64,000 nucleotides of DNA from Chamaelirium japonicum (lineage: Eukaryota; Streptophyta; Magnoliopsida; Liliales; Melanthiaceae). Position numbers and translations under genes: made by a program. The notes beneath the pieces were generated by a model. The model had not been told where the DNA came from and did not search any database. It saw nothing but the letters and a program-made list of their open reading frames with translations. The DNA lies in NCBI GenBank assembly GCA_947650365.1, contig OX393550.1, forward strand, positions 49,275,594 through 49,339,593. Reading direction: 5' to 3'. Positions 4,593 through 55,104 of the stretch are shown one piece after another; the first letter of the stretch is position 1; each line of letters opens with the position of its first letter.

Positions 4593-9556
<4,964 letters not shown>

Positions 9557-11605
9557 AAAGGGATCCCCCTCCCGTCTCCGATGTCACGATCTCGCATAGC
9601 TGGTGCTGCGATCTCCCCTCCTAACCACCAATGGATCTCCCCTCCCGACCACCCGTCGATCTCCTTCTTCGTCAACAACCTCGAGGCGCCATGATCTCCA
9701 GACCACCGGCTCCCGGATCTCTCGGCACCTGCGCTGCGATCTCCTGACCACTGGCGATCTCCTGACCACTGGTATGCTGGTTTCCATTTTGTTGCATATT
9801 GTGAAATCCAGTTCGTTTATCGACTTTGCTAAGGTTCTGATCAATCATAGTAATGTTTCTTTACTTCTCTATATTTGTTTTTTTCTGTTCTCTAGGTTGT
9901 AACCACAAGATGCGTGTGATTGAATTGCTGGCTATATACATGATTGAATTCCGTGGCATTGGATAGGCTAAGGAATCCAGGAACTCAGATGACAAATCCG
10001 GTGGGCCTCGTTGTCTGCTGCGACTCCAACTGATGTACACAAACCAATTATTGGTTGATACTTGTTGTCGGGCATCATGTAAAAATCCGGAAAAAATCAT
10101 ATCCATCTTTGTATTGGATTTCCTTTCAATGTTGTTTACCAGACTTTCAGTGGTTTGTGTATTAATCGAAAGCAGTTATTATCAGGTTGAAATTAACTTA
10201 TATATGATCAGACATTGTCTCCAGACTTTCATTTGTCTTTAACCATTATGATTCTGATACAGTTGATGGCTGTTAACCATTCAATTCTGTTAAGTTTCTC
10301 TTGATGATCATGTCGTGTTCTGAATAAAACCAAGTTTTCCCAACCTTTGTGTTTGTTAAGTTTCTCTTGATGATCATGTCGTGTTCTGAATATAGGCTGA
10401 CAGCCCATTTTCAGTTTATATGCCATTGGAATCAACTGGAAAAAAAAAAAAGGAAGGAAAAGTTTTGCAATTTTCGGGTATAGGTGATGCTTTCAATCAA
10501 CAACAAGAACACTCCATTTCTATTTTGTATGAACCAACAGGTACAGGGGCTTTGAAGCCTTCAACTGGTGGCTGCTCTACATCAAACCATGTGGAAGGAT
10601 TAAAAATAAATCTATCAGAAGCTGGTTGTTTATGATTCTATGGTATTCGATGAGCGCATGCAGGTATATTGTTTATAATCGGTGGAATCGATAGCCGAAG
10701 AAATGTTCATTAAGACCGAGACAAAGCCTTGATGTTATGGGCTTTTTGTTTAGTGAAAGTATAATATTGTTCTTTAGGTTGTTATTAACTGTCATACGGT
10801 CCCGGTCACCTGCAAACAGCACTAAGACCTCCAATCAGAACACCCTCAATCACAACTCTCAGCCCCGATCCATCGGCCGGAGCTCACCGAGGACGGCCGA
10901 GCACTCACCCCATAGAAGGAACCCCTTGGCCGAAATCGACCAGAACACCCTCAGATCAGAACAGCAGCACAAGGGCAACAAGAAGATGCAGACGAACAGA
11001 GATGGGGAGGAGGAAGGGGTGAGGGAGCCCAGCCAATCACACACCAGGGTGAGGCACACACAACTCTCCATCTCTGTAGTTTTCCTTTGATCTTGTTTTG
11101 GGTTTTTTTACATCTACTGATAGCTGCTGATTCTTGGGTCACTGCAGGGAGCAATCGAAAACAACTCTCGAATTTCAAACTCAGATTCTCGAATTTCAAA
11201 TGGGGTTAAGGGAAACCAGGTCACCGGCAACTGCGCCGGCGAGCAGCCGATAAGCTGCTGCAGAGTCAAGGAGCCGCAACCGGAGTCGGAGACAGTGGAA
11301 GAAGCTGAAGAGGTGAAAGGGGTTAATCCAAAGCCTATTGGGGTTCCATTCACAAGAGCTGGGGTGGAAAGTCTCAACCCAAGATCCATAACAAGCACCA
11401 GATCTTCAAGGAGAGCTTCCAGAGATCTGGATCATAATCTTGGCTTGAACTCAACTCCACCACAACATTTGAATCAATAAGAATATCAGGTGTAGAGTTG
11501 TTTGAAGGCCGGAAGAAGCACCATTGAGCTCTTTAAGAAGCACATCAATTCAGAAATCGAGATTTTACAAAATTTGATTATTCAGAAGCATCACAAAGGC
11601 TTATA
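9557..11605. other. Distal half unique to the left Mutator-like copy
   Basis: This 2 kb is absent from the right copy, where an inverted repeat of the other end replaces it. It contains a 67 bp direct duplication (10288-10393 area, unit beginning GTTAAGTTTCTCTTGATGAT) and a stray internal copy of the terminal motif, ATAGGCTGACAGCCCATTTT, at about 10392. A plus-strand frame to 11480 ends PFTRAGVESLNPRS...PPQHLNQ and is flanked by a possible acceptor (CACTGCAG, 11147). It could be a captured host fragment but I do not recognise it. A possible intron or spacer fills the remainder. Confidence 0.4.
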
Positions 11606-11848
11606 GTGCCTTCTTCTTTCCCTTGCTGGTATTCGAAACCTTCTTCAGTTTTTTCTGCCTCTTGTACTCTCCATACAGGCTTATGGATGACACCGTGTGA
11701 TTCAGCTCCGCCCTCAGTCTCTCGTTATCGGCGATGCCTCTAAGCACCGTGAAATGCTCTTCCAACTTGCTCTTCACCTCGTCGTCATTCTCCAACATAT
11801 TCCGACACTTGCTGTTCTTTTGGAGCAGATGCTTTAGCGTGACCAAGG
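11601..11848 (-). CDS. Possible last exon of a second element-borne gene
   Basis: Preceded by a good acceptor (TATTGCAG, minus strand), this 248 bp exon reads through LVTLKHLLQKNSKCRNMLEN and ends in a lysine-rich tail with the stop after KGKKKAL. The composition (charged, helical, no low complexity) is protein-like and the frame is kept in the right copy. The family is not recognised; it could be a captured host exon or a second Mutator gene. Upstream exons are not certain. Confidence 0.45.
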
Positions 11849-11869
11849 CTGCAATATGTTAAAACAAAA

Positions 11870-12226
11870 TTAACGATGTAACCATGATTCTAGTAATTTT
11901 TTTGCAAGAGACAGGGCATCATTTATACTCATAGAATGCCCATCCACTGTACTTGGAGAAACATGATAGGGTGTCGGTGGTTGCAAATAAAAATGATATG
12001 TAGAATGAAATGATGTGTCAAGCGGGGGGGATTTGGGATTTGAGTTTTTGCTACGATTTGACTCTTCTAAAGTAACAATTTTACACAAATGTCTAATAAT
12101 GAAATCATGATTTACTACAACTAAGCATGCCTCATTAAGTACTGACTCTTGACTCCTGGGAAAAAAAAACATGAAGTACAAACCAAATGCAGCCAAAGAT
12201 AACAAATACAGGATCACCACAATCAA
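11870..12226 (-). CDS. Hypothetical open frame of the element (118 aa)
   Basis: The frame is likely to begin at the acceptor-like TTTCCCAG near residue 24; from there it reads SQESVLNEACLVVVNHDFII and ends SLAKKLLESWLHR and stop. The N-terminal hydrophobic segment probably comes from intron sequence. It lies between the transposase gene and the exon at 11601-11848 on the same strand. The identical frame exists at 28071-28427. Function unknown. Confidence 0.3.
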   Translation of the reverse strand: MIVVILYLLSLAAFGLYFMFFFPRSQESVLNEACLVVVNHDFIIRHLCKIVTLEESNRSKNSNPKSPPLDTSFHSTYHFYLQPPTPYHVSPSTVDGHSMSINDALSLAKKLLESWLHR

Positions 12227-12709
12227 TTTAAGACTAACTGAGTATGTATAGAAGCCATGTAGTAAAGGTTACAAAATCTGCAAAAAAATCAGAAAAATGA
12301 CATTTTCCCACATTTGACTCACATACCAGCACTTGCTACCCTTGAAGTGTGGGTTCTATTGCTCACAAAAAAACAATTGAGGAAGTACAACTACTCCAAC
12401 CATTCACTACTTGCTCACATCGTTTATAATAGAAAGAGTGAGATTAGTAAAATTGATACCAATGGTAATGGTAAGAGAGAGTGAGATTAGTAAAATTGAT
12501 ACCAATGGTAATGATATTTAGCCACATTGCATGCAAGATTCCATGATAATTACAGTTCTTAAAGAGAGAGAAGGGCAAACAACGAAGCCGTAGGCAGTAA
12601 CTAATCATTTGAGGTAGGTTCCACATTCATCTTTGTCCACATTCTTTTTTTTTCCTCCCATACATTCACCTCATTTAAATAGGTCATGATTGTGAGAAGA
12701 CATATACTG

Positions 12710-15324
12710 TCAAATGCTTGAAAATACAGATTGATCATCACATGCAGCAGCAGCAACAGCAGTAGCCGCCTCCTGAAAAGTGTACCTCATGAATAACTAA
12801 AAGTGTTCAAAGAGTAGGAAGTTATACATTAAAATTCAGTAGGATCATACCTTGGCTTTGATACACCCGGTTTTGTAATGGCCCTTTTCCCCACAAAACC
12901 CACATGTTCGTGGCTTCTTACGACTTTCCTCTTGTGACTCCTCCAATCCACTTCTTATTCTGGTAGCGATTCTCGGTCGCCCTTTAGTTTTGACGGGTCC
13001 CGTCGGATCACGAATCGTAATATCAGGAAATATATCTTTGTTTTGGGAGATAGGTATTACCGAAGAACCATCTTGGCTAGCAAGTACTTGGGATAATGGA
13101 TCAAACTCAACTGTCTGAGTTGTTTTTTTCCGGTTATCAACTTCTGCCAACGTCTTTGACAAGATCGTGTCAAATTCCTCAGCGAATGTAGATGACTTGT
13201 ATGCTTCTTCTAAAGCCTTATTGCATTTATATCGAATGCTCCAATAAAGATCGCGATCCACTTCGGTAGGTGCACTGTCACCTAGGCCAACAGAAAGACA
13301 TCGATGTCGTGCATCTATAGTCCATCGCTTCAGAATATATCTATCCGGAATCTCTGAAACATGTTTCTTCCATAAAATATTTAGTGCGTGCCTACATAGT
13401 AATCCAACGAACTCAAATTGTTTGCATTCACAAGAAACCACTACCCCATCAGAATTATCGTACGTGACAGTTTTCCATTTGCTTTGGTCCGATTGCGGGC
13501 GTCCAACAATGAACTTAGTTAAGGTCCCCTCCTTATGCACCTTGTCAGCCCAATAACCGAATGCATCTTTCAACTCTTGCTTGAATATGACAAATAAGGC
13601 TTTGGTGTAGCATCTTGCAGCTTGCTCCTCAGCTTTCCATCCCAAAGTTAGAACGGGTTTTGAGTTCATGGTATTGAAATCTTCATCTTCCTCAGCAGAA
13701 CGACGACTTGCTAATGCCTTATCGTACTGGACGACAAATTCGTGCAATGCTGTGTTTGCATTAACAAATGTATCGAAGAATGAATTTATACTTTCAGCCC
13801 TTTGACTCGTTCTCGTGCCAGCAAGAAATGTATCCTTTAGATAACAAGGGATCCAACTTTCTCGTTTCCCCCATAACTTTGGCAGCCAACTTTTCTCTGC
13901 CAATTTATACCTTGTCATCAACTCTTTCCAACATTCCTCTGCTTCAAGTATAGTGTTACTACCCCACAATCTGTTAAAGTATATTTCAAACTCTATACCG
14001 TGTATAGTTTTTAAATGCACTATATGCTCACCAATATTCCTGTCAAGATGCCAATCACAATATCGATGTCGAGTATTTGGAAAAACTTTAGTGATTGCAT
14101 TTCCAATAGCTGCATCCTGATCGGTAATGATAGCTCCCGGTGCTTTACCATGCATACATGTAAGCCATTGATGAAACAACCAAACAAAGGTTTCCTCTGT
14201 CTCATCGGCTAGTAATGCGCAACCGAACAAACTTGACTGTCGATGGTGATTGATACCAGTGAAAGGAGCAAATGGTAAACAGAAGCTATTAGTACGATAT
14301 GTGACATCGAATATAATAACGTCACTAAACTTAGCATATGATTCTCGTGATCTCCCATCTGCCCAGAATACACTTCTTAAAGTTAAATCTTCGGCCACTT
14401 CAAAAGAAAAGTAAAAATCTGAATCATTGGCTTTTTTCTCTTGAAAGTGTTTAATAACTTTAGCACAATTTTGACCGATATTGTTCTTTCTTTCAATTCT
14501 CAAGTAATCATGAACTTGTTGTGGAGTTACAATGTCATTCTGGCTTGATTCCAATACATTGACAACCTTTGCAATTTTTGAATTTGTTATTCCTTCACTA
14601 TGAAGCTGCGTAATTAAATTCTTGACTCGTGGCTGTCGATGAACATTCTTGTGTGAACGATGCTTCGATGTCTTTGTTGGACTAGTCAGCTCATGATTGT
14701 CATGTTGCTCAACAAACATGGTAACTCTCCAAGTGTCAGAATTAGTAAGAATAATCTTCATCCTTGCATTACATCCTACCCGTAGTTGACGATTATGAAC
14801 TACTTCTTTGTCTGCCTCTCCTTTACTATTCTTCAGTGTAATCTGACCCTCTTTGTTACAAACAAATTTTCTAGATATGACTTTGTTTTTATCTGTCCTG
14901 GACTTATTGGTCGACGACCATCTTACACCAAATCCTGTCTTCAAAGCATACCGATTATAGAAGTCATATGCAGCTTTCTGACTAACAAACTCCATTCCTA
15001 TCTGTGGTGTAATAGAATCATCTCTTTCATCATCTTCCAAATTATATATATCATCATATTCGGGGTTGTCCTAAAAATAAAAAGATCAAGAATATAGTGA
15101 GACATTACATCATGTAGTACGAACTATGTTTTCAATACATTTCAACCAAGAATCAAGAATCGTTTATGTTTGAATAATTAAAATATATATCATGATATAA
15201 AGCCAATCATAATTACCTGGTTTATTATTTCAGGGCAGTGAGAAAAGCCTGTTTCGTAATTCACATCTCCATCAGAATGTCCAATTTCGTGAAGTAAAGG
15301 GTCATGTTGATTGTTAATAACCAT
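12710..15324 (-). CDS. FAR1/FHY3-type Mutator-like transposase (left copy)
   Basis: Predicted 796 aa transposase that would cut and integrate the element's ends. Exons: 15324-15217 (ATG, 36 codons), 15070-12851 and 12772-12710, with GT-AG introns; a CAG just upstream of the ATG suggests an intron in the 5' leader. Domains in order: acidic N-terminus; FAR1 DNA-binding zinc finger of the WRKY-GCM1 fold (about 60-165, ending HDNHEL); MULE DDE domain with Asp291 (IIFDVTY), Asp353 (IITDQDAA) and Glu462 (SQRAESIN); SWIM zinc finger Cys583/Cys585/Cys595/His597; CCHC zinc knuckle Cys759/762, His767, Cys772. All catalytic residues are present and no stop interrupts it. It differs from the right copy at four residues: Lys201, Ala361, Trp405 and Lys487 here. 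A domesticated FAR1-related host gene is the alternative, but the transposon ends on both sides argue against it. Confidence 0.88.
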
Positions 15325-15469
15325 TGTCCTCCCTGAAACCAATTGTATACTGTGTTTTGTAAAAATAACTTACAGACATCAACATTAAAAAAAAACATAC
15401 TAATCTCCTGATTTACATTTATTTCAGTTTGAATTTTAAAAAAATATCTTAAGTACAACTGATGCTGCA

Positions 15470-17629
15470 GCACATGTCATGATCTATGAAAACCTGGGTG
15501 ACTATATTTCCCATGAAGTTCCTACCTTAAGAAATTTTATGGGCAACTATGAGAACCAGAGTTCTATGATACCATCCTTGGCAGCTAGTTCATATGCCAT
15601 GCGGTTGCTTCAAAGGTGTGAGCATTATTTGTCACGTTTACAAATTATTTATCAGTTATGTCACCTTGTTATATGTTTGTTTAAAAATATTGCTTCTTTT
15701 TCTTGCTGATTATTCAAATGTACAATTATTGGGAAAAATTGTTCCATACTCGTTGAATGGTGTTTCATTTCAGCTCTTTGGATTATAATTGTCCCACAAA
15801 GTTGGTTGCCAAGCTTAATCTGCCTAACCAGGAACGTAGATATCCTACCCACCAACTAGCCTTGTAGGTCTCTTGGCATGCCCCTCTATTTCTAAGTTGC
15901 ATTGGTCCAGTTTTACTGCACCAATGTTTGATGGTTGACATCTGGTTGACACCTAGTTGGAAAACTCCTATCAATCTTCCCTATAGTCAACCCCAGCAGA
16001 TCCATCTTGACTGTATAAGACTGGGATGATGATTATTTGACTTGTGTCTCCTCATCCATCAGACAATTTAGAATACCTCGATTTGCTTGCGTTCCGGGTT
16101 GTCAAAAAATGTTTTAATATTGACACCATAAAAATGAGCAAGCAATTATGACAATAACATCATTTGTTCCTTTGAGTGCATATAAACATAGAAGCTGCCT
16201 ACATATATTATGTCAGGCCATGCGGCTGTCAGAGTGCTAGTTTGATAAATATTTATTTTTAAATTATTCTTTTGAATAATAAATCCCTTTACTGGATTAA
16301 AATTGGATTTTAGAGTATTTCTTGATTTCTAATATCAAAATAGATTCTAACAGCAGAAAAAAGAAAAAAAAATTCAACCAACCCATATGGGTGTTCACCT
16401 CCAGACACCGACGACGACTTGCAACACAAACGGCTTCTACCTGAATCCATCCTAACCAAAATGGGCTCTCCTCTATGAAATATTTCAGACCCAATTTTTT
16501 TTTTAGAAAAATTACATTGTAATCATCTCACCCAATTTAGTTTATCCTAACCAAATTACCTTTCTTTTCCTCATTATATCCAACACAAATTGGTTTTTAA
16601 AAAATAAGAAAAAAAATTCTCACGGTGCTTCCGTTCATATATATGATCAAGACCCATGAACAACGATGAGATGAGAAGCGAAGAGAGATTAATTCTCATG
16701 GGTTTCAGAGAAAATTTCAGAAAGAGAGATTACCAGTGAGGACGCCGAAGCCGTCGGGATGAGGACACGGGTGCCGCCGGAGCAGTCGGGGATGACGCGG
16801 GCGGAGCCGTCGGTGGTTGAGGACGCGGGCACCACCGGAGCCGTCGGGGATGAGGACGCGACAGCCTAAAATTGAATCCTGAACTTGAATCCTGATCGAG
16901 CATCAAGCGGCCGGAGACGGGAGAGGAGATCACAGCCCCGGCGATCTCCTGTAGCCGGTGAGGCTGTGTGCACGAATCTCCTGTAGCCGGCGAGGCCAGC
17001 CGGTAGCAAAATCCTAGGTTTCGTGGTCGCGTGGGGACGAAGGCAGCAAGGGTGAGGGCACAGCGAGACGGGAGGGGAGATTCGTGCGTAGGGTGGGGAC
17101 GGGTGAGGGCCAACCGGCAGCCAATCTCTGTGCGTAGGGTGGGGACGGGTATCAAGCGGCCGGAGACGGGAGGGAGATCACAGCCCCAGCGATCTCCTCC
17201 GGCGATCTCCTGTAGCAGGCGAGGCTGGGTGCATCGGAGACGGACGCGGGCGGAGAGATCGGGCGGCGATTGGGATGACCGGACCGGGGCTCGGGGGTAG
17301 AGGGCGGAGAGATCAGGCGGAGCCGATCTCTGTCGGCGATGAGGACGCGGGCGGAGAGATCGGTTGGAGATCGGGATGAGGACCGGACCGGGGCTCGGGG
17401 GTTGAGGGCGGAGAGATCAGGCGAAGCCGATCTCTCTCTCTGTGGTCTTCTCTCTCACCGAAACAGAGAGACAGAGAGGTCGTGGACTCGTTGGTTGGCC
17501 GGATGGTGGATTTCTCTCTCTCTCATCAGAGGGGCAGCCTAAACAATCTGAGCCATTCACTCGTTAAGAATCGGATGGCTGACAGCGGCAGCCTATATTG
17601 AAAATAAGCTGTCAGCCCATATCCCGTTT

Positions 17630-17633
<4 letters not shown>
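15470..17633. repeat. Right terminal 2,164 bp of the left Mutator-like copy
   Basis: This segment recurs at 22664-24827 (inverted) and 28688-30851 (same orientation), each exactly 2,164 bp long. It holds the terminal repeat, GC-rich CGGAGAGATC-type units and about 1.3 kb of AT-rich non-coding sequence. No gene is recognised in it. Confidence 0.93.

Positions 17634-17696
<63 letters not shown>
17634..17696. repeat. (TA)n microsatellite
   Basis: About 31 TA units between the element end and the MITE at 17697. The mirror tract at 22577-22663 has about 43 units. Confidence 0.97.
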
Positions 17697-18238
<542 letters not shown>

Positions 18239-19886
18239 AGTGTTACGTTGCGCTGTGCGCTGCCCCGCCTACAAAATGCGTTGTACGTTTCTGGCCGTCC
18301 GATCGCGCGGATCGGCTGAAACAGCGTTCAAATCCCCCGCTTTGTCCCCCGGCCGTCTAATCCTATCGGTCAACCGTCTGATCGCGTGCATGCACAGACG
18401 CCCGGTCGTCTGCGATGGGTCGTTCGATTCCCATAAGTTGGATCGAGTGTTTTATAACTACAAAGCAACAAAATCAAAACCCTTCTTGGTATTTTTCTTC
18501 AAACTATCCTTGAGCGAGTGTTTTGAATCTAAAATACATAAAAATCAAGTTTTGGGTTCTGAATATAAGCACATCCTATGGACCAGGTAACACCAAATTT
18601 TTATATCATAATCTAATTCAGTAATTTGAGTTAGAAAAACTCTATTTATCAAATTTTTTTAACTGTTTCTTATGTTCAAACTCACTCTGGTAGTCCCTTG
18701 TTTCAAATGTTGTTTTGTTATCCTTGTAAAGGTTCAAGGCACTGTTTCAAAGGTTCATATTAAAGAAGATCATATAGTATAAAAAAACAAAGATTGTAAT
18801 ATATTTAACCTACTTGATCAATATATGTTTGACAATATGTTTGTCGATGGACATCGTACAAATAACATTACTCATTTGCTACCCGATTGATTTGCTTGCA
18901 TTTGCCTGGCGGTTGGGATTTGGGGGGTGAGTGCGATTCAATGATCGGAGGCGGCAAAGAGAGAGAGAGAGAGAGATCTGGGGGTAGCGAAGTCGGATAT
19001 CATGCAATATATGTAGCATCATAACTATCACAACCCACCAAGAGAAATCAATCATATCATTATTGCATTAATGTCAATGATATATATCTCATGGGAATTT
19101 TAACTAATCTTCAACACTAAGAAGCTTTTCAAATGCCCATATCTACCTTTTCAATCTAATTATAAATCCTAACATAAATTTCAAATTAGTAATAAGAAAA
19201 AACATAGTCCCCAATTTCGAAATTTAAAGCCACACACACACACACATACACAAAGGAGTACCAAGTGGGCCCAAACCTTCGGCGACCACCACTACCAGCA
19301 ATTGGGCCCAGACCTCCGGCGACTACCTGCAATTGGGCCCAAACCTTCGGCGACCACCACTACCAGCAATCTAATTGGCATTGATGGTGCCCGTCATCGC
19401 GCGCCGGCCGGGAATGAGTGAGATTAACCTGCTCGCAGGTCGGAGCTGGGCTCTTCGGGTGCTTGTCGGTCTAGGCCAGGCTGGGGCCTACCCTCTCTCT
19501 CTATATAAAAAAAAAAGGAAAAAAAAAATACTATTTTTTATAACCAATGTTGATACCACATTAAAATTCTTCAAATGGTTAAACAGAGCCATTGTTTAAA
19601 GAATCATCTTCTCCAACATTGTAAAAACCTAATCAATCAAAACATTGTAAAACCTGATAATCAAAACACTTTTAAAACCTGATCAATCAAAACCACAGTT
19701 TTTAAAAAAAATGTGGAGTGGCATTATGACACACAGTTTCCTCTGTTCTTTTGCAAGCAGAGAAAAAAAACGATGAACTATCTATTTTCAGATAAAAAAT
19801 ACAAAGGAACTTCTTGTTAAAGAAAAAAGTGGAACAATCAGATTACACTAAAATTATCTGTGTCTGGACGTTAAAAAAATTAGAAA

Positions 19887-19947
<61 letters not shown>

Positions 19948-22096
19948 TATCTTCAGATCGCAAATGGGTTCTCTCTCCAAATCTGACTCCCCTTCCTCCT
20001 TCTCCCCATCACGCTCAACATCATGCCCACGATCTCTCCTAGCGAAGCGCCGAACGAAATTTTTTTTGCTATCTCCAATGATCAGTTCACTCATGGCCAC
20101 CCTTTTCCTCCTTCTCCTTCCTAATCGGCTTTTTATTCCGATTGTTCTTGAATTTTCCTTTGAATTTTTTCCATCTTGGGTTTCCTTTTTTACTATTCCT
20201 GTGTTTTTTTTATTTTATTATGGAGTTTTTAGTTTTTTTCGTCTCCTCTGTTTTTTTTTTGAAATACATAGCAATATTTCTTATTATTGTATTTAGGTTT
20301 TTGTTTTTTTTTTTAAATGGGGTTTCATATATTTGGGTTTCCTCTCCTCTGTTTTTTTTTTTTCTGAAAACAGATCATACATTTGGGCTTCCTCCTTCTC
20401 CGATTTATTTTTTAAAACGATTTCTTCCTCTGTTTTTTTTTTCTATCTTTGTTTCTAATTTTTTTAACGTCCAGACACAGATAATTTTAGTGTAATCTGA
20501 TTGTTCCACTTTTTTCTTTAACAAGAAGTTCCTTTGTATTTTTTATCTGAAAATAGATAGTTCATCGTTTTTTTTCTCTGCTTGCAAAAGAACAGAGGAA
20601 ACTGTGTGTCATAATGCCACTCCACATTTTTTTAAAAAACTGTGGTTTTGATTGATCAGGTTTTAAAAGTGTTTTGATTATCAGGTTTTACAATGTTTTG
20701 ATTGATTAGGTTTTTACAATGTTGGAGAAGATGATTCTTTAAACAATGGCTCTGTTTAACCATTTGAAGAATTTTAATGTGGTATCAACATTGGTTATAA
20801 AAAATAGTATTTTTTTTTTCCTTTTTTTTTTATATAGAGAGAGAGGGTAGGCCCCAGCCTGGCCTAGACCGACAAGCACCCGAAGAGCCCAGCTCCGACC
20901 TGCGAGCAGGTTAATCTCACTCATTCCCGGCCGGCGCGCGATGACGGGCACCATCAATGCCAATTAGATTGCTGGTAGTGGTGGTCGCCGAAGGTTTGGG
21001 CCCAATTGCAGGTAGTCGCCGGAGGTCTGGGCCCAATTGCTGGTAGTGGTGGTCGCCGAAGGTTTGGGCCCACTTGGTACTCCTTTGTGTATGTGTGTGT
21101 GTGTGTGGCTTTAAATTTCGAAATTGGGGACTATGTTTTTTCTTATTACTAATTTGAAATTTATGTTAGGATTTATAATTAGATTGAAAAGGTAGATATG
21201 GGCATTTGAAAAGCTTCTTAGTGTTGAAGATTAGTTAAAATTCCCATGAGATATATATCATTGACATTAATGCAATAATGATATGATTGATTTCTCTTGG
21301 TGGGTTGTGATAGTTATGATGCTACATATATTGCATGATATCCGACTTCGCTACCCCCAGATCTCTCTCTCTCTCTCTCTTTGCCGCCTCCGATCATTGA
21401 ATCGCACTCACCCCCCAAATCCCAACCGCCAGGCAAATGCAAGCAAATCAATCGGGTAGCAAATGAGTAATGTTATTTGTACGATGTCCATCGACAAACA
21501 TATTGTCAAACATATATTGATCAAGTAGGTTAAATATATTACAATCTTTGTTTTTTTATACTATATGATCTTCTTTAATATGAACCTTTGAAACAGTGCC
21601 TTGAACCTTTACAAGGATAACAAAACAACATTTGAAACAAGGGACTACCAGAGTGAGTTTGAACATAAGAAACAGTTAAAAAAATTTGATAAATAGAGTT
21701 TTTCTAACTCAAATTACTGAATTAGATTATGATATAAAAATTTGGTGTTACCTGGTCCATAGGATGTGCTTATATTCAGAACCCAAAACTTGATTTTTAT
21801 GTATTTTAGATTCAAAACACTCGCTCAAGGATAGTTTGAAGAAAAATACCAAGAAGGGTTTTGATTTTGTTGCTTTGTAGTTATAAAACACTCGATCCAA
21901 CTTATGGGAATCGAACGACCCATCGCAGACGACCGGGCGTCTGTGCATGCACGCGATCAGACGGTTGACCGATAGGATTAGACGGCCGGGGGACAAAGCG
22001 GGGGATTTGAACGCTGTTTCAGCCGATCCGCGCGATCGGACGGCCAGAAACGTACAACGCATTTTGTAGGCGGGGCAGCGCACAGCGCAACGTAAC

Positions 22097-22099
<3 letters not shown>
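18239..22099. mobile_element. Large foldback element at the palindrome centre
   Basis: A 3.86 kb element with arms of about 1.65 kb (18239-19888 and 20450-22099) and a 561 bp loop. The terminal sequence GTGTTACGTTGCGCTGTGCG followed by CTGGCCGTCCGATCGCGCGG matches the small foldback element at 7636-8230. Each arm includes a short tandem repeat around GGGCCCAAACCTTCGGCGAC (19267-19370 and mirror), a (CA)n or (GT)n tract, and a possible inserted GC block ending in CTCTCTCTATATAAAA. The mirror-image open frames in the arms have no recognisable domain. Confidence 0.8.
19889..20449. other. Unique 561 bp spacer of the palindrome
   Basis: Begins with (TC)n (19890-19947), then GC-mixed sequence with a frame starting MGSLSKSDSPSSFSPSRSTS, then very T-rich sequence to 20449. 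The frame could be a captured host first exon because its composition differs from the flanks, but after about 50 residues it becomes low-complexity and I do not recognise it. Confidence 0.4.

Positions 22100-22175
<76 letters not shown>
22100..22175. repeat. Compound (TC)n(TA)n microsatellite
   Basis: About 17 TC units and about 20 TA units. Mirror of the 18097-18238 tract but much shorter. Confidence 0.97.
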
Positions 22176-22178
<3 letters not shown>

Positions 22179-22574
22179 AAAGGGTAGCCTACTCCATGGA
22201 GTAGGCTACTTATCTACTCCATGGCCTAAATAGACGCCACATGACACTTTTAAATCGGGTATTTTGTTGATGTATGGTCAATCCAAAATGGATAGATTAG
22301 GATTATGAAAAAAAAACCGAAGAAAAAAATCTCAATCAACTCGATCAAGTTGTAACAAATTTAACGGTAAATTATGCATCGTAAAATTTTTTTTTTTTTT
22401 GCATGCTAAAAATACTACTTGGCATGTTTTTTCTCAAATTTTTTTCTTGACAATTATTGAGAGGGATGAACCTAAGTTGATAAAGTCTTATCTCCGGTTA
22501 AAAAGTGTTACATGGCATCCATTTAACCCATGGAGTAGATAAGTTACCTACTCCATGGAGTAGGCTACCTTGCC

Positions 22575-22576
<2 letters not shown>
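22176..22576. mobile_element. Foldback MITE, GCCTACTCCATGGAGTAGG family (right, mirror)
   Basis: Inverted copy of 17697-18096, differing by about 1 bp in length. It belongs to the right arm of the giant palindrome and is therefore a duplicate, not an independent insertion. Confidence 0.8.

Positions 22577-22663
<87 letters not shown>
22577..22663. repeat. (TA)n microsatellite
   Basis: About 43 TA units between the MITE and the left end of the right Mutator-like copy. Confidence 0.97.
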
Positions 22664-22667
<4 letters not shown>

Positions 22668-24827
22668 AAACGGGATATGGGCTGACAGCTTATTTTCAAT
22701 ATAGGCTGCCGCTGTCAGCCATCCGATTCTTAACGAGTGAATGGCTCAGATTGTTTAGGCTGCCCCTCTGATGAGAGAGAGAGAAATCCACCATCCGGCC
22801 AACCAACGAGTCCACGACCTCTCTGTCTCTCTGTTTCGGTGAGAGAGAAGACCACAGAGAGAGAGATCGGCTTCGCCTGATCTCTCCGCCCTCAACCCCC
22901 GAGCCCCGGTCCGGTCCTCATCCCGATCTCCACCCGATCTCTCCGCCCGCGTCCTCATCGCCGACAGAGATCGGCTCCGCCTGATCTCTCCGCCCTCTAC
23001 CCCCGAGCCCCGGTCCGGTCATCCCAATCGCCGCCCGATCTCTCCGCCCGCGTCCGTCTTCGATGCACCCAGCCTCGCCTGCTACAGGAGATCGCCGGAG
23101 GAGATCGCTGGGGCTGTGATCTCCCTCCCGTCTCCGGCCGCTTGATACCCGTCCCCACCCTACGCACAGAGATTGGCTGCCGGTTGGCCCTCACCCGTCC
23201 CCACCCTACGCACGAATCTCCCCTCCCGTCTCGCTGCGCCCTCACCCTTGCTGCCTTCGTCCTCACGCGACCACGAAACCTAGGATTTTGCTACCGGCTG
23301 GCCTCGCCGGCTACAGGAGATTCGTGCACACAGCCTCACCGGCTACAGGAGATCGCCGGGGCTGTGATCTCCTCTCCCGTCTCCGGCCGCTTGATGCTCG
23401 ATCAGGATTCAAGTTCAGGATTCAATTTTAGGCTGTCGCGTCCTCATCCCCGACGACTCCGGTGGTGCCCGCGTCCTCAACCACCGACGGCTCCGCCCGC
23501 GTCATCCCCGACTGCTCCGGCGGCACCCGCGTCCTCATCCCGACGGCTTCGGCGTCCTCACTGGTAATCTCTCTTTCTGAAATTTTCTCTGAAACCCATG
23601 AGAATTAATCTCTCTTCGCTTCTCATCTCATCGTTGTTCATGGGTCTTGATCATATATATGAACGGAAGCACCGTGAGAATTTTTTTTCTTATTTTTTAA
23701 AAACCAATTTGTGTTGGATATAATGAGGAAAAGAAAGGTAATTTGGTTAGGATAAACTAAATTGGGTGAGATGATTACAATGTAATTTTTCTAAAAAAAA
23801 AATTGGGTCTGAAATATTTCATAGAGGAGAGCCCATTTTGGTTAGGATGGATTCAGGTAGAAGCCGTTTGTGTTGCAAGTCGTCGTCGGTGTCTGGAGGT
23901 GAACACCCATATGGGTTGGTTGAATTTTTTTTTCTTTTTTCTGCTGTTAGAATCTATTTTGATATTAGAAATCAAGAAATATTCTAAAATCCAATTTTAA
24001 TCCAGTAAAGGGATTTATTATTCAAAAGAATAATTTAAAAATAAATATTTATCAAACTAGCACTCTGACAGCCGCATGGCCTGACATAATATATGTAGGC
24101 AGCTTCTATGTTTATATGCACTCAAAGGAACAAATGATGTTATTGTCATAATTGCTTGCTCATTTTTATGGTGTCAATATTAAAACATTTTTTGACAACC
24201 CGGAACGCAAGCAAATCGAGGTATTCTAAATTGTCTGATGGATGAGGAGACACAAGTCAAATAATCATCATCCCAGTCTTATACAGTCAAGATGGATCTG
24301 CTGGGGTTGACTATAGGGAAGATTGATAGGAGTTTTCCAACTAGGTGTCAACCAGATGTCAACCATCAAACATTGGTGCAGTAAAACTGGACCAATGCAA
24401 CTTAGAAATAGAGGGGCATGCCAAGAGACCTACAAGGCTAGTTGGTGGGTAGGATATCTACGTTCCTGGTTAGGCAGATTAAGCTTGGCAACCAACTTTG
24501 TGGGACAATTATAATCCAAAGAGCTGAAATGAAACACCATTCAACGAGTATGGAACAATTTTTCCCAATAATTGTACATTTGAATAATCAGCAAGAAAAA
24601 GAAGCAATATTTTTAAACAAACATATAACAAGGTGACATAACTGATAAATAATTTGTAAACGTGACAAATAATGCTCACACCTTTGAAGCAACCGCATGG
24701 CATATGAACTAGCTGCCAAGGATGGTATCATAGAACTCTGGTTCTCATAGTTGCCCATAAAATTTCTTAAGGTAGGAACTTCATGGGAAATATAGTCACC
24801 CAGGTTTTCATAGATCATGACATGTGC
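22664..24827. repeat. Left 2,164 bp inverted repeat of the chimeric element
   Basis: Pairs with 28688-30851 over its whole length with no net length difference. A few substitutions are visible, such as CGCGTGAGGACGAA against CGCGTGGGGACGAA (complement of the area around 23262). Confidence 0.93.
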
Positions 24828-24972
24828 TGCAGCATCAGTTGTACTTAAGATATTTTTTTAAAATTCAAACTGAAATAAATGTAAATCAGGAGATTAGTAT
24901 GTTTTTTTTTAATGTTGATGTCTGTAAGTTATTTTTACAAAACACAGTATACAATTGGTTTCAGGGAGGACA

Positions 24973-27587
24973 ATGGTTATTAACAATCAACATGACCCTT
25001 TACTTCACGAAATTGGACATTCTGATGGAGATGTGAATTACGAAACAGGCTTTTCTCACTGCCCTGAAATAATAAACCAGGTAATTATGATTGGCTTTAT
25101 ATCATGATATATATTTTAATTATTCAAACATAAACGATTCTTGATTCTTGGTTGAAATGTATTGAAAACATAGTTCGTACTACATGATGTAATGTCTCAC
25201 TATATTCTTGATCTTTTTATTTTTAGGACAACCCCGAATATGATGATATATATAATTTGGAAGATGATGAAAGAGATGATTCTATTACACCACAGATAGG
25301 AATGGAGTTTGTTAGTCAGAAAGCTGCATATGACTTCTATAATCGGTATGCTTTGAAGACAGGATTTGGTGTAAGATGGTCGTCGACCAATAAGTCCAGG
25401 ACAGATAAAAACAAAGTCATATCTAGAAAATTTGTTTGTAACAAAGAGGGTCAGATTACACTGAAGAATAGTAAAGGAGAGGCAGACAAAGAAGTAGTTC
25501 ATAATCGTCAACTACGGGTAGGATGTAATGCAAGGATGAAGATTATTCTTACTAATTCTGACACTTGGAGAGTTACCATGTTTGTTGAGCAACATGACAA
25601 TCATGAGCTGACTAGTCCAACAAAGACATCGAAGCATCGTTCACACAAGAATGTTCATCGACAGCCACGAGTCAAGAATTTAATTACGCAGCTTCATAGT
25701 GAAGGAATAACAAATTCAGAAATTGCAAAGGTTGTCAATGTATTGGAATCAAGCCAGAATGACATTGTAACTCCACAACAAGTTCATGATTACTTGAGAA
25801 TTGAAAGAAAGAACAATATCGGTCAAAATTGTGCTAAAGTTATTAAACACTTTCAAGAGAAAAAAGCCAATGATTCAGATTTTTACTTTTCTTTTGAAGT
25901 GGCCGAAGATTTAACTTTAAGAAGTGTATTCTGGGCAGATGGGAGATCACGAGAATCATATGCTAAGTTTAGTGACGTTATTATATTCGATGTCACATAT
26001 CGTACTAATAGCTTCTGTTTACCATTTGCTCCTTTCACTGGTATCAATCACCATCGGCAGTCAAGTTTGTTCGGTTGCGCATTACTAGCCGATGAGACAG
26101 AGGAAACCTTTGTTTGGTTGTTTCATCAATGGCTTACATGTATGCATGGTAAAGCACCGGGAGCTATCATTACCGATCAGGATGCAGCTATTGGAAATAC
26201 AATCACTAAAGTTTTTCCAAATACTCGACATCGATATTGTGATTGGCATCTTGACAGGAATATTGGTGAGCATATAGTGCATTTAAAAACTATACACGGT
26301 ATAGAGTTTGAAATATACTTTAACAGATTGCGGGGTAGTAACACTATACTTGAAGCAGAGGAATGTTGGAAAGAGTTGATGACAAGGTATAAATTGGCAG
26401 AGAAAAGTTGGCTGCCAAAGTTATGGGGGAAACGAGAAAGTTGGATCCCTTGTTATCTAAAGGATACATTTCTTGCTGGCACGAGAACGAGTCAAAGGGC
26501 TGAAAGTATAAATTCATTCTTCGATACATTTGTTAATGCAAACACAGCATTGCACGAATTTGTCGTCCAGTACGATACGGCATTAGCAAGTCGTCGTTCT
26601 GCTGAGGAAGATGAAGATTTCAATACCATGAACTCAAAACCCGTTCTAACTTTGGGATGGAAAGCTGAGGAGCAAGCTGCAAGATGCTACACCAAAGCCT
26701 TATTTGTCATATTCAAGCAAGAGTTGAAAGATGCATTCGGTTATTGGGCTGACAAGGTGCATAAGGAGGGGACCTTAACTAAGTTCATTGTTGGACGCCC
26801 GCAATCGGACCAAAGCAAATGGAAAACTGTCACGTACGATAATTCTGATGGGGTAGTGGTTTCTTGTGAATGCAAACAATTTGAGTTCGTTGGATTACTA
26901 TGTAGGCACGCACTAAATATTTTATGGAAGAAACATGTTTCAGAGATTCCGGATAGATATATTCTGAAGCGATGGACTATAGATGCACGACATCGATGTC
27001 TTTCTGTTGGCCTAGGTGACAGTGCACCTACCGAAGTGGATCGCGATCTTTATTGGAGCATTCGATATAAATGCAATAAGGCTTTAGAAGAAGCATACAA
27101 GTCATCTACATTCGCTGAGGAATTTGACACGATCTTGTCAAAGACGTTGGCAGAAGTTGATAACCGGAAAAAAACAACTCAGACAGTTGAGTTTGATCCA
27201 TTATCCCAAGTACTTGCTAGCCAAGATGGTTCTTCGGTAATACCTATCTCCCAAAACAAAGATATATTTCCTGATATTACGATTCGTGATCCGACGGGAC
27301 CCGTCAAAACTAAAGGGCGACCGAGAATCGCTACCAGAATAAGAAGTGGATTGGAGGAGTCACAAGAGGAAAGTCGTAAGAAGCCACGAACATGTGGGTT
27401 TTGTGGGGAAAAGGGCCATTACAAAACCGGGTGTATCAAAGCCAAGGTATGATCCTACTGAATTTTAATGTATAACTTCCTACTCTTTGAACACTTTTAG
27501 TTATTCATGAGGTACACTTTTCAGGAGGCGGCTACTGCTGTTGCTGCTGCTGCATGTGATGATCAATCTGTATTTTCAAGCATTTGA
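24973..27587 (+). CDS. FAR1/FHY3-type Mutator-like transposase (right copy)
   Basis: Mirror duplicate of the gene at 12710-15324. Exons: 24973-25080 (ATG, 36 codons ending EIINQ), 25227-27446 and 27525-27587, joined by GT-AG introns in phase 0; 796 aa. The short last exon encodes an alanine-rich tail ending SVFSSI. Catalytic Asp291, Asp353 and Glu462, the FAR1 finger, the SWIM finger and the CCHC knuckle are all retained. Differences from the left copy are Glu201, Thr361, Arg405 and Thr487; none is a catalytic or zinc-binding residue. The two genes are divergent, with both 5' ends pointing at the palindrome centre. The ATG in the small first exon was chosen because no later ATG precedes the DNA-binding domain in frame. 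Confidence 0.88.
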
Positions 27588-28070
27588 CAGTATATGTCTT
27601 CTCACAATCATGACCTATTTAAATGAGGTGAATGTATGGGAGGAAAAAAAAAGAATGTGGACAAAGATGAATGTGGAACCTACCTCAAATGATTAGTTAC
27701 TGCCTACGGCTTCGTTGTTTGCCCTTCTCTCTCTTTAAGAACTGTAATTATCATGGAATCTTGCATGCAATGTGGCTAAATATCATTACCATTGGTATCA
27801 ATTTTACTAATCTCACTCTCTCTTACCATTACCATTGGTATCAATTTTACTAATCTCACTCTTTCTATTATAAACGATGTGAGCAAGTAGTGAATGGTTG
27901 GAGTAGTTGTACTTCCTCAATTGTTTTTTTGTGAGCAATAGAACCCACACTTCAAGGGTAGCAAGTGCTGGTATGTGAGTCAAATGTGGGAAAATGTCAT
28001 TTTTCTGATTTTTTTGCAGATTTTGTAACCTTTACTACATGGCTTCTATACATACTCAGTTAGTCTTAAA

Positions 28071-28427
28071 TTGATTGTGGTGATCCTGTATTTGTTATCT
28101 TTGGCTGCATTTGGTTTGTACTTCATGTTTTTTTTTCCCAGGAGTCAAGAGTCAGTACTTAATGAGGCATGCTTAGTTGTAGTAAATCATGATTTCATTA
28201 TTAGACATTTGTGTAAAATTGTTACTTTAGAAGAGTCAAATCGTAGCAAAAACTCAAATCCCAAATCCCCCCCGCTTGACACATCATTTCATTCTACATA
28301 TCATTTTTATTTGCAACCACCGACACCCTATCATGTTTCTCCAAGTACAGTGGATGGGCATTCTATGAGTATAAATGATGCCCTGTCTCTTGCAAAAAAA
28401 TTACTAGAATCATGGTTACATCGTTAA
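28071..28427 (+). CDS. Hypothetical open frame of the element (118 aa, right copy)
   Basis: Identical in sequence to the frame at 11870-12226. The part after the acceptor-like CCCAG near 28141 is the most protein-like. Function unknown, and it may be exon plus intron sequence. Confidence 0.3.
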   Translation: MIVVILYLLSLAAFGLYFMFFFPRSQESVLNEACLVVVNHDFIIRHLCKIVTLEESNRSKNSNPKSPPLDTSFHSTYHFYLQPPTPYHVSPSTVDGHSMSINDALSLAKKLLESWLHR

Positions 28428-28448
28428 TTTTGTTTTAACATATTGCAG

Positions 28449-28927
28449 CCTTGGTCACGCTAAAGCATCTGCTCCAAAAGAACAGCAAGTGTCGGAATAT
28501 GTTGGAGAATGACGACGAGGTGAAGAGCAAGTTGGAAGAGCATTTCACGGTGCTTAGAGGCATCGCCGATAACGAGAGACTGAGGGCGGAGCTGAATCAC
28601 ACGGTGTCATCCATAAGCCTGTATGGAGAGTACAAGAGGCAGAAAAAACTGAAGAAGGTTTCGAATACCAGCAAGGGAAAGAAGAAGGCACATGTCATGA
28701 TCTATGAAAACCTGGGTGACTATATTTCCCATGAAGTTCCTACCTTAAGAAATTTTATGGGCAACTATGAGAACCAGAGTTCTATGATACCATCCTTGGC
28801 AGCTAGTTCATATGCCATGCGGTTGCTTCAAAGGTGTGAGCATTATTTGTCACGTTTACAAATTATTTATCAGTTATGTCACCTTGTTATATGTTTGTTT
28901 AAAAATATTGCTTCTTTTTCTTGCTGA
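28449..28927 (+). CDS. Chimeric exon of the second element gene, fused to the inverted arm
   Basis: Starts at the same acceptor as the left-copy exon 11848-11601 and encodes the same residues up to KGKKKA. It then crosses the rearrangement junction at 28688 and continues in frame into the duplicated arm (HVMIYENLGDYISHEVPTLR) for about 80 residues to a stop at 28927. The left copy has only AL and a stop after this point, so the normal C-terminus was replaced by the rearrangement. Confidence 0.5.
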
Positions 28928-30847
28928 TTATTCAAATGTACAATTATTGGGAAAAATTGTTCCATACTCGTTGAATGGTGTTTCATTTCAGCTCTTTGGA
29001 TTATAATTGTCCCACAAAGTTGGTTGCCAAGCTTAATCTGCCTAACCAGGAACGTAGATATCCTACCCACCAACTAGCCTTGTAGGTCTCTTGGCATGCC
29101 CCTCTATTTCTAAGTTGCATTGGTCCAGTTTTACTGCACCAATGTTTGATGGTTGACATCTGGTTGACACCTAGTTGGAAAACTCCTATCAATCTTCCCT
29201 ATAGTCAACCCCAGCAGATCCATCTTGACTGTATAAGACTGGGATGATGATTATTTGACTTGTGTCTCCTCATCCATCAGACAATTTAGAATACCTCGAT
29301 TTGCTTGCGTTCCGGGTTGTCAAAAAATGTTTTAATATTGACACCATAAAAATGAGCAAGCAATTATGACAATAACATCATTTGTTCCTTTGAGTGCATA
29401 TAAACATAGAAGCTGCCTACATATATTATGTCAGGCCATGCGGCTGTCAGAGTGCTAGTTTGATAAATATTTATTTTTAAATTATTCTTTTGAATAATAA
29501 ATCCCTTTACTGGATTAAAATTGGATTTTAGAGTATTTCTTGATTTCTAATATCAAAATAGATTCTAACAGCAGAAAAAAGAAAAAAAAATTCAACCAAC
29601 CCATATGGGTGTTCACCTCCAGACACCGACGACGACTTGCAACACAAACGGCTTCTACCTGAATCCATCCTAACCAAAATGGGCTCTCCTCTATGAAATA
29701 TTTCAGACCCAATTTTTTTTTTAGAAAAATTACATTGTAATCATCTCACCCAATTTAGTTTATCCTAACCAAATTACCTTTCTTTTCCTCATTATATCCA
29801 ACACAAATTGGTTTTTAAAAAATAAGAAAAAAAATTCTCACGGTGCTTCCGTTCATATATATGATCAAGACCCATGAACAACGATGAGATGAGAAGCGAA
29901 GAGAGATTAATTCTCATGGGTTTCAGAGAAAATTTCAGAAAGAGAGATTACCAGTGAGGACGCCGAAGCCGTCGGGATGAGGACGCGGGTGCCGCCGGAG
30001 CAGTCGGGGATGACGCGGGCGGAGCCGTCGGTGGTTGAGGACGCGGGCACCACCGGAGCCGTCGGGGATGAGGACGCGACAGCCTAAAATTGAATCCTGA
30101 ACTTGAATCCTGATCGAGCATCAAGCGGCCGGAGACGGGAGAGGAGATCACAGCCCCGGCGATCTCCTGTAGCCGGTGAGGCTGTGTGCACGAATCTCCT
30201 GTAGCCGGCGAGGCCAGCCGGTAGCAAAATCCTAGGTTTCGTGGTCGCGTGGGGACGAAGGCAGCAAGGGTGAGGGCGCAGCGAGACGGGAGGGGAGATT
30301 CGTGCGTAGGGTGGGGACGGGTGAGGGCCAACCGGCAGCCAATCTCTGTGCGTAGGGTGGGGACGGGTATCAAGCGGCCGGAGACGGGAGGGAGATCACA
30401 GCCCCAGCGATCTCCTCCGGCGATCTCCTGTAGCAGGCGAGGCTGGGTGCATCGGAGACGGACGCGGGCGGAGAGATCGGGCGGCGATTGGGATGACCGG
30501 ACCGGGGCTCGGGGGTAGAGGGCGGAGAGATCAGGCGGAGCCGATCTCTGTCGGCGATGAGGACGCGGGCGGAGAGATCGGGTGGAGATCGGGATGAGGA
30601 CCGGACCGGGGCTCGGGGGTTGAGGGCGGAGAGATCAGGCGAAGCCGATCTCTCTCTCTGTGGTCTTCTCTCTCACCGAAACAGAGAGACAGAGAGGTCG
30701 TGGACTCGTTGGTTGGCCGGATGGTGGATTTCTCTCTCTCTCATCAGAGGGGCAGCCTAAACAATCTGAGCCATTCACTCGTTAAGAATCGGATGGCTGA
30801 CAGCGGCAGCCTATATTGAAAATAAGCTGTCAGCCCATATCCCGTTT

Positions 30848-30851
<4 letters not shown>
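28688..30851. repeat. Right 2,164 bp inverted repeat of the chimeric element
   Basis: Inverted copy of 22664-24827 and direct copy of 15470-17633. It begins right at the GCAC microhomology and ends at the terminal motif before (TA)n. Confidence 0.93.

Positions 30852-30887
<36 letters not shown>
30852..30887. repeat. (TA)n microsatellite
   Basis: About 17 TA units between the chimeric element and the next MITE. Confidence 0.95.
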
Positions 30888-30890
<3 letters not shown>

Positions 30891-31011
30891 GCATGCTATG
30901 CTGCGACATGCGGTACGTGCGGCACCGCACCGCAACCGTCTGATGCACGCAGCGCGTGCATCAGACGGCATGCGGTAGGTGCCGCACTTACCGCATGCCG
31001 CATTATAGCAT
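30888..31011. mobile_element. Hairpin MITE, GCGGCATGCGGT family (copy 2)
   Basis: Ends GGGGCATGCTATGCTGCGAC and the complement of GCATGCCGCATTATAGC pair along almost the full 124 bp, with a GCACGCAGCGCGTGC loop. It is flanked by (TA)n on the left and (TC)n(TA)n on the right. Confidence 0.8.
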
Positions 31012-31012
31012 T

Positions 31013-44197: not shown

Positions 44198-44273
<76 letters not shown>

Positions 44274-54541: not shown

Positions 54542-55104
54542 TCATCTTTCCGCCCAGAACCCATGAAAGCCTAGAGGGAAATTCAAGTGCTTTGGCACTT
54601 CGAGTTTCGCTACGACTGCATCATCCTCACCGATTCTCCTCGCATCCAATACCACCAGGTAGCATCTCTGCTTCGAAACCGCATACTGCACCCAAAACGG
54701 AGGAACAGAGCTGAGCAACCAAACGACACAATGAATCAGTAGCAAGCCATGTGAGTGATAGAACCTCTCACCTCGACTACTAGAACATAGCCGTCGTCCT
54801 CCCCGCCGTTCCCGGACTCGTCACCTCTGGGGACGAATATGGGCTCTCCGATGAACCTCCTGCTCCCGGCCCACCACGAAGCCACCGACCCATCGGAACA
54901 GTTGAGCTTCGCCATGGTGTCGAAGGGGAAATGTGGCAAGAATCGTCGAGAACCGGAGGTTGTGCCTGCGTATATGTAAGAGTTCCTGCGACCGGAGTAG
55001 GCCGGATTGATCGCCGGGAAGTCTGCTGGTCTGCTCCATCGTTCCGATAGGTTGGCGACCGAACATCGACCATGCGCACCATCCGCGGCCAGCTCAATTG
55101 ATAT
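54542..55104 (-). CDS. CCD7: Carotenoid cleavage dioxygenase 7, last two exons
   Basis: CCD7 cleaves 9-cis-beta-carotene in plastids in strigolactone synthesis. Two exons are visible: 55104-54772 (after the acceptor CCTCGCCTTAG) and 54685-54542, with a phase-0 GT-AG intron; 158 codons to the stop. Diagnostic stretches are WSRPADFPAINPAYSGRRNS, SGSRRFLPHFPFDTMAKLN, RRFIGEPIFVPRGDE and the C-terminal LEVPKHLNFPLGFHGFWAER, whose GFHG carries the last iron-binding histidine. The other three histidines would be in upstream exons, but no CCD7-like exon is visible between 55105 and 64000. Either the upstream intron is very long and repeat-filled, or this is a 3' fragment. The exons have no stops or frameshifts and are GC-rich, which favours a real or recently lost gene. 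Confidence 0.82.

Follow-up and report, generated by a model that had tools for sequence, protein, structure and literature searches.

The locus at nt 8691–30851 of the window (the whole 64,000 nt stretch analysed here, C2:49275594–49339593 of the 1.52-Gb genome) is probably the product of one recent complex rearrangement of X, a (TA)n-targeting, FAR1-type MULE (probability about 0.6). The anatomy of the locus, its junctions, the family copies of X and the private mutations were observed directly, and are described below before the course of the rearrangement is considered.

The greater part of the locus is a palindrome (Table 1). Self-BLAST of the window gave inverted matches of 99.4% (11606–18138 against 28691–22134) and 99.7% (18163–19888 against 22175–20450), and the length and identity of this match exclude a chance origin. 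With microsatellites left out, 8,078 bases of the two arms can be aligned, and among these are 14 substitutions and a single indel, distributed as 12 substitutions in the 6,028 bp belonging to X, one substitution and one indel in the 400 bp of the foldback element MITE1, and a single substitution in the 1,650 bp of the repeat Q. The (TA) tracts are of unequal length (63 vs 86 bp, and 116 vs 40 bp in a second tract). A preliminary description of this DNA had recognised the inverted arms, the unequal microsatellites and the 561 bp spacer, with coordinates that self-BLAST places within 4 bases of the true ones. The palindrome it located at nt 11610–28687 therefore stands, but a third copy, T, was missed, and the complete transposon starts outside that interval, at nt 8691. 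Nor is the structure a simple duplication of one locus, since the centre consists of another, dispersed repeat in rearranged orientation and the outer ends are proper transposon ends lying in (TA)n.

Table 1. Coordinates of the palindrome, its component elements and its junctions within the window.
Feature	Position (nt)	Strand	Basis or remark
Foldback MITE flanked by (TA)n, just left of X	8347–8496	+	related sequence also right of T
Complete element X, left copy, 8,943 bp, FAR1-type MULE in (TA)n	8691–17633	- (transposase strand)	end motifs; other genomic copies
Left palindrome arm	11606–19888	+	self-BLAST of window
Left transposase gene, about 777–780 aa	exons 15324–15217 and 15070–12845	-	FAR1, MULE and SWIM domains
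MITE1, left copy, 400 bp foldback element in (TA)n	17697–18096	+	same insertion in C1338
Q fragment, left copy	18239–19888	+	arm comparison, genome search
Centre fold-back junction, end of Q arm to far (GA)n end of spacer	19888–19889	.	comparison with Q copies
Spacer, 561 bp, piece of dispersed repeat Q	19889–20449	.	normal continuity with right arm only
Right palindrome arm, inverted copy of 19888–11606	20450–28691	-	self-BLAST of window
Q fragment, right copy	20450–22099	-	no substitution against C1338 in 1,582 aligned bp
MITE1, right copy	22176–22576	-	arm comparison
R+T unit, derivative of 8.19 kb whose inverted ends measure 2.16 kb	22664–30851	.	both ends from transposase 5' side
Right transposase gene, open frame	exons 24973–25080 and 25227–27452	+	four residues differ from left
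R-T junction, 4-bp overlap GCAC	28688–28691	.	X positions 11606 and 15470 joined inverted
T, third partial copy, transposase 5' side end of X	28688–30887	+	direct repeat of 15470–17669

Both arms carry a transposase gene, and both frames are open, in agreement with the young inverted duplication with two transposase genes that had been proposed. The two proteins differ at four residues only, as also stated in the preliminary description (201 K/E, 361 A/T, 405 W/R and 487 K/T), while the length of 796 aa given there is replaced by the shorter product of the present gene model. When the two window copies are aligned with 16 of the 120 listed homologues, none of the four positions is among the columns marked invariant or nearly invariant. 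Pfam recognised the MULE domain (PF10551, E-values 7e-30 and 3.7e-29) together with FAR1 (PF03101) and SWIM (PF04434) domains; searches of PDB sequences and of Rfam gave no match. Among the matches listed, the named ones are from flowering plants, the best-scoring named relatives being FAR1-RELATED SEQUENCE 5-like proteins of Asparagus (46–47% identity), which makes a flowering plant the most likely host; other listed relatives share 35–55% identity. In the parasitic plant Orobanche gracilis, a fragmentary protein shows 66% identity over 60% of the transposase, a likeness that may reflect either horizontal transfer or simply sparse sampling.

The left gene belongs to the complete copy of X, both ends of which read GAGAAAACGGGATATGGGC inward, with nt 8691 and 17633 matching in inverted orientation. 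Its terminal inverted repeats appear in self-BLAST as a match of 88% between nt 8628–9054 and 17696–17247. A genome search with nt 11606–17600 recovered copies of at least 99.6% identity on C10, C7, C4, C3 and C1, one of 98% on C50, and many partial copies of 94–99%; 33 of 796 candidates were scored, and the copy counts are lower bounds. The C7 copy measures 8,943 bp from end to end, equal to the window copy, and that on C10 measures 8,845 bp. Matches of more than 1 kb given as 100% were found in at least 8 places (33 of 796 candidates scored), three of them inside the window, and those outside it lie on C10, C7, C4, C3 and C1, with none on a small unplaced contig among the same 33 candidates. 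The C10 and C7 copies are unbroken up to the (TA)n at nt 17696, while internal gaps occur in C4 (17419–17545) and C1 (12785–13186). Exact left ends lie in (TA)n in four of four copies (C10, C7, C4 and C3), as do exact right ends (four of four; C10, C7, C3 and C1), in some cases with a short GA/TC run in between. The exact right end motif is missing from C4 and C50, which nevertheless align up to the (TA)n at nt 17696. Since its exact ends adjoin (TA)n, X is a microsatellite-targeting MULE of the MuTAnT, SaTar or Micron kind. Target site duplications (8–11 bp for MULEs) cannot be recognised, as the X copies with found ends sit in (TA)n.

Several further observations concern X itself. On C10 (C10:3499501–3501403), a second X-like end adjoins the X copy with only 15 TA units between them, so that X can insert beside its own kind. 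Between nt 15470 and 15870 (+ strand, opposite to the transposase) is a pair of open stretches, bordered by splice-like sequence and accompanied by a stop codon, for which Pfam returned nothing above the cut-off; from their form they may be a piece captured from a host gene. Downstream of the transposase, still inside X, an open stretch of 82 residues (11848–11586, - strand) was considered as a last transposase exon and rejected, as the frame does not join, and Pfam gave no match to it.

The outer limit of the palindrome arms, nt 11606, is a junction inside X, because all six covering X copies outside the window (C10, C7, C4, C1 and the partial copies on C250 and C8) pass straight across this position; these are fetched loci, and C3 and C50 lack the region around nt 11606. 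For the same reason X reaches to the left of the palindrome arm, and the left copy is complete and not truncated. A reading that took the right arm and T for the original element, bounded by long terminal repeats, and the left copy for a truncation of it was thereby ruled out. Among the fetched loci, the right arm is the only one where the match to X stops at nt 11606. Since X runs through both 11606 and 15470, the jump of the right arm from one to the other is a rearrangement. This R-T junction is situated outside simple repeats, and an overlap of at least 4 bases at the join has a chance of about 0.016 for random bases. Beyond it, T adjoins the right arm and terminates at a proper X end in (TA)n. 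By self-BLAST, T is 99.86% identical to its direct counterpart and forms an inverted repeat of 99.82% with nt 22628–24827, and the two ends of the R+T unit are 99.8% identical in inverted orientation.

The centre of the palindrome, nt 18240–20449, is part of the dispersed repeat Q (genome search, 40 of 853 candidates scored). Eleven other Q copies are listed with both sides of the join between arm end and spacer (C2 at 10.8, 46.8 and 52.6 Mb, C1338, C3 at 28.8 and 8.3 Mb, C11 at 32.7 Mb, C8 at 40.8 Mb, C10 at 67.5 Mb, C6 at 8.3 Mb and C1844; three of the 11 fetched and compared, and 40 of 853 candidates scored), and in all 11 the spacer is inverted relative to the left join of the window. The palindrome is thus not the normal form of Q. 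The right arm and spacer retain the normal Q order, and the join at 19888/19889 is the new fold-back join, because the 11 other copies carry the spacer the opposite way. A 28-base pattern across this join occurs once in the 1.52 Gb, with up to one mismatch allowed. The join itself borders a (GA)n tract, with no microhomology seen at 19888/19889. A reading of the inner 4 kb as a transposon in its own right, bounded by inverted ends of 1.65 kb, was ruled out by the genome search, since the other Q copies have the spacer inverted.

The closest copy of Q is on a small contig, C1338. In the aligned Q sequence, with a 68-bp gap left out, it shows no substitution to the right arm and one to the left, while two other Q copies show 15–24 differences from the arms or from C1338. 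The C1338 spacer is 99.3% identical to that of the window, and its MITE1, in the same place, is 98.8% identical; among the loci compared (L009–L044), MITE1 was found in the window and C1338 only. X is absent from the MITE1-Q site of C1338. The flanks of C1338 show no match to the window in the 10 kb compared, except for MITE-family and short weak matches, and a 3.55 kb C1338 flank has no full-length partner above 93% identity, with short repeat pieces reaching 99% (40 of 4,401 candidates scored). On account of these flanks C1338 is read as a different locus, and it is unlikely to be a haplotig of the window, whose sequence its flanks did not match in the 10 of its 48.5 kb compared.

Polarisation against X copies elsewhere in the genome showed every one of the 12 arm differences in X to be private, six to the left copy (L) and six to the right (R), with none common to both, and T has no private change over 2,164 bp. 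Private mutations of this kind mean that the arms are not duplicates of the same reads, and the preliminary argument that the arm differences speak against a fold-back read artefact is strengthened by the 6 + 6 private derived changes. Ten of the 12 are C:G to T:A, as methylation of transposon DNA would lead one to expect. In five unlinked X copies the private changes number 3, 4, 5, 5 and 9. Divergence between L and R is 0.20%, that of either from C10 is 0.15%, and unlinked X copies differ among themselves by 0.13–0.28% (C50 left out). Because the arms are no more alike than unlinked copies, the rearrangement would date near the burst of the X family. Per-lineage divergence is 0.076% (14 changes over L, R and T). 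With 1.3e-8 to 7e-9 mutations per site and year, the age would be about 60–110 thousand years, an estimate that leaves generation time and methylation aside.

The rearrangement would have begun with X beside MITE1 and a Q repeat, at a site like that of C1338. During repair or replication linked to the movement of X, copying may have run on past the transposase-side end through MITE1 and into Q, with a turn at the (GA)n tract that gave the junction 19888/19889; (GA)n tracts are sites of polymerase stalling. Q, MITE1 and X would then have been copied in the opposite orientation, back to nt 11606, where a template change at the GCAC match would have led from X position 11606 to 15470, with exit at the right X end. 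The product, nt 8691–30851, is bounded on either outer side by a proper X end lying in (TA)n, and its two halves would afterwards have mutated independently for about as long as other X copies. We infer the template switching, its timing and its link to transposition, as well as the direction of the polymerase and the choice between gap repair in place and formation elsewhere followed by movement as a unit. Template switching linked to TIR transposons has been described for Pack-TIRs (PMC8277862).

This single-event reading is supported by C1338, which has MITE1 and a near-identical Q without X, and by the uniqueness of the centre junction together with the GCAC overlap, which is unlikely by chance. 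It is weakened by a centre junction that lacks microhomology, and the finding that no fetched locus has an X copy beside MITE1-Q, the proposed donor, counts against it. A search with the right flank revealed no empty site, the repeats found being at most 94% identical in pieces of at least 100 bp (40 of 2,813 candidates scored). Both outer flanks are without a match to the Q context of C1338.

Three other explanations have to be weighed against a single rearrangement. The 22.2 kb composite could have formed at a C1338-like locus and then been moved as a unit by its outer X ends, as a macrotransposon. The outer ends, 8691 and 30851, are indeed proper X ends in (TA)n, and the window lacks the C1338 sequence upstream of MITE1 and downstream of the spacer, MITE-family and short weak matches aside. 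In-place gap repair gives the same ends, however; target duplications are unreadable in (TA)n, 22 kb would be large for the X family, and there is no second composite, the centre junction having been found once, so that we regard such a transfer as possible but doubtful. An assembly error, with one locus represented twice by haplotypes or overlapping contigs fused head to head and with T as a chimera, appears unlikely. The arm divergence of about 0.2% lies within ordinary plant heterozygosity and would fit it, as would the long (TA)n tracts, hard to assemble, in which several features of the arms and the outer limits are situated. Against it stand the 12 private changes of the X arms (6 + 6, ten of them C:G to T:A), which do not derive from the same reads, and the location of the R-T junction outside simple repeats. 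Moreover, with 33 of 796 candidates scored, no small unplaced contig bears an X match of more than 1 kb given as 100%, C1338 is without the window flanks in the 10 kb compared, and its 3.55 kb flank is without a full-length partner above 93%.

The locus could also have been assembled by separate insertions, with a Q palindrome bearing MITE1 on both sides formed first, and X and an R+T derivative inserted later into the outer (TA)n. X copies are known to sit in (TA)n, R+T bears proper X ends on both sides, and L and R (0.20% apart) are no closer to each other than either is to C10 (0.15%). Two independent, mirrored insertions within 5 kb would nevertheless be an unlikely coincidence, given that the search, with 33 of 796 candidates scored, lists no more than eight places with a long X match, three of them in this window. 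The Q and MITE1 parts of the arms (2 substitutions in 2,050 bp) are no older than the X parts (12 in 6,028 bp), and the centre junction is unique; this course of events is accordingly considered very improbable.

The surroundings of the locus are rich in small repeats on the left, where nt 4597–8690 combine (TA)n, (CT)n and GC-rich segments with short foldback MITEs in an array that resembles the SaTar arrays of guayule and rice (PMC5907723). The MITE next to X begins with GGGGTATGCTAGAATG, by eye close to the MuTAnT end mask GGGGTTTGCTAGAACA, and sequence related to it is present to the right of T at nt 30888–31012. Farther to the right is a Copia-type polyprotein frame (44531–46618, 695 aa, with Pfam domains RVT_2 and Retrotran_gag_2), and on its 3' side nt 44202–44387 are 91% identical to the MITE right of T (self-BLAST). 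An exon-like stretch of a carotenoid oxygenase family gene (PF03055) at nt 54736–55104 places the locus near a host gene or gene fragment.

X can be likened to MuTAnT and AutoMuTAnT of Medicago, which, as described in PMC4486113, have a Jittery-like MULE transposase, insert into (TA)n, and are accompanied by short foldback elements with GGGG/CCCC ends, as at this locus. AutoMuTAnT is 4.9 kb in length with the TIR mask GGGGTTTGCTAGAACA (PMC4486113), compared with 8.9 kb and ends GAGAAAACGGG in X, and the X ends were judged by eye to be unlike that mask. SaTar elements and autonomous SaTar-MULEs are likewise targeted to microsatellites and form non-nested arrays, similar to the 4.6–8.7 kb region of the window; PMC5907723 contains no 'palindrom' wording, and no such derivative is described in the 12 of its 33 passages compared. 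The capture of foreign sequence by template switching in Pack-TIRs (FoSTeST; PMC8277862) is comparable to what is proposed here, and multiple-TIR MULEs, mostly non-autonomous, gain extra ends by an unsettled route, for example slippage or recombination (PMC3310237). Unlike either of these, the present locus involves a fold-back through flanking DNA, has open transposase frames, and allows the whole path to be read from one young locus.

A further parallel is Mu killer of maize, an inverted derivative of MuDR, and the structural likeness pointed out in the preliminary description is borne out. According to PMC3440606, Mu killer has an inverted duplication of transposase sequence, as has the palindrome here, and both of its ends derive from the transposase side, as in the R+T unit; it holds partial mudrA copies, proposed to form a hairpin of about 4 kb. 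The present locus differs in its two full transposase frames, captured Q, 17 kb palindrome and FAR1-type rather than MuDR origin. Titles and the beginnings of abstracts in a limited open-access literature revealed no comparable rearrangement besides Mu killer. The hairpin double-stranded RNA that had been suggested for the palindrome does not follow in the form stated, since the two genes point away from the centre and their own transcripts form no hairpin, and read-through across the centre would be required. In plants silencing MuDR, short antisense transcripts start inside the Mu killer locus, and read-through from flanking genes was rejected as their source (PMC3440606). The more Mu killer-like feature of the present locus would be R+T, in which two transposase 5' side ends face each other across one frame. 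In T lies the sequence that precedes the transposase start, beginning 146 bp ahead of the ATG; because T faces the right transposase gene, convergent transcription over that gene is possible, judging from its layout.

It is conceivable, though distinctly unlikely, that nature has here produced a counterpart to Mu killer, a composite that arose in the burst of its own family and silences X copies in trans. Were this so, convergent R+T transcripts would give double-stranded RNA over the whole gene and all X copies would be silenced, and fold-back copying by way of flanking DNA would be a general route by which microsatellite-targeting MULEs arrive at self-made silencers. The locus offers a Mu killer-like rearrangement resolved to the base, with its source element, the closest copy of the captured repeat and polarised private mutations; with these in hand, the order of events is directly testable here, as is the small-RNA prediction. 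It would also be an instance of a MULE that copied the DNA beside it, as is often postulated to happen in gene capture.
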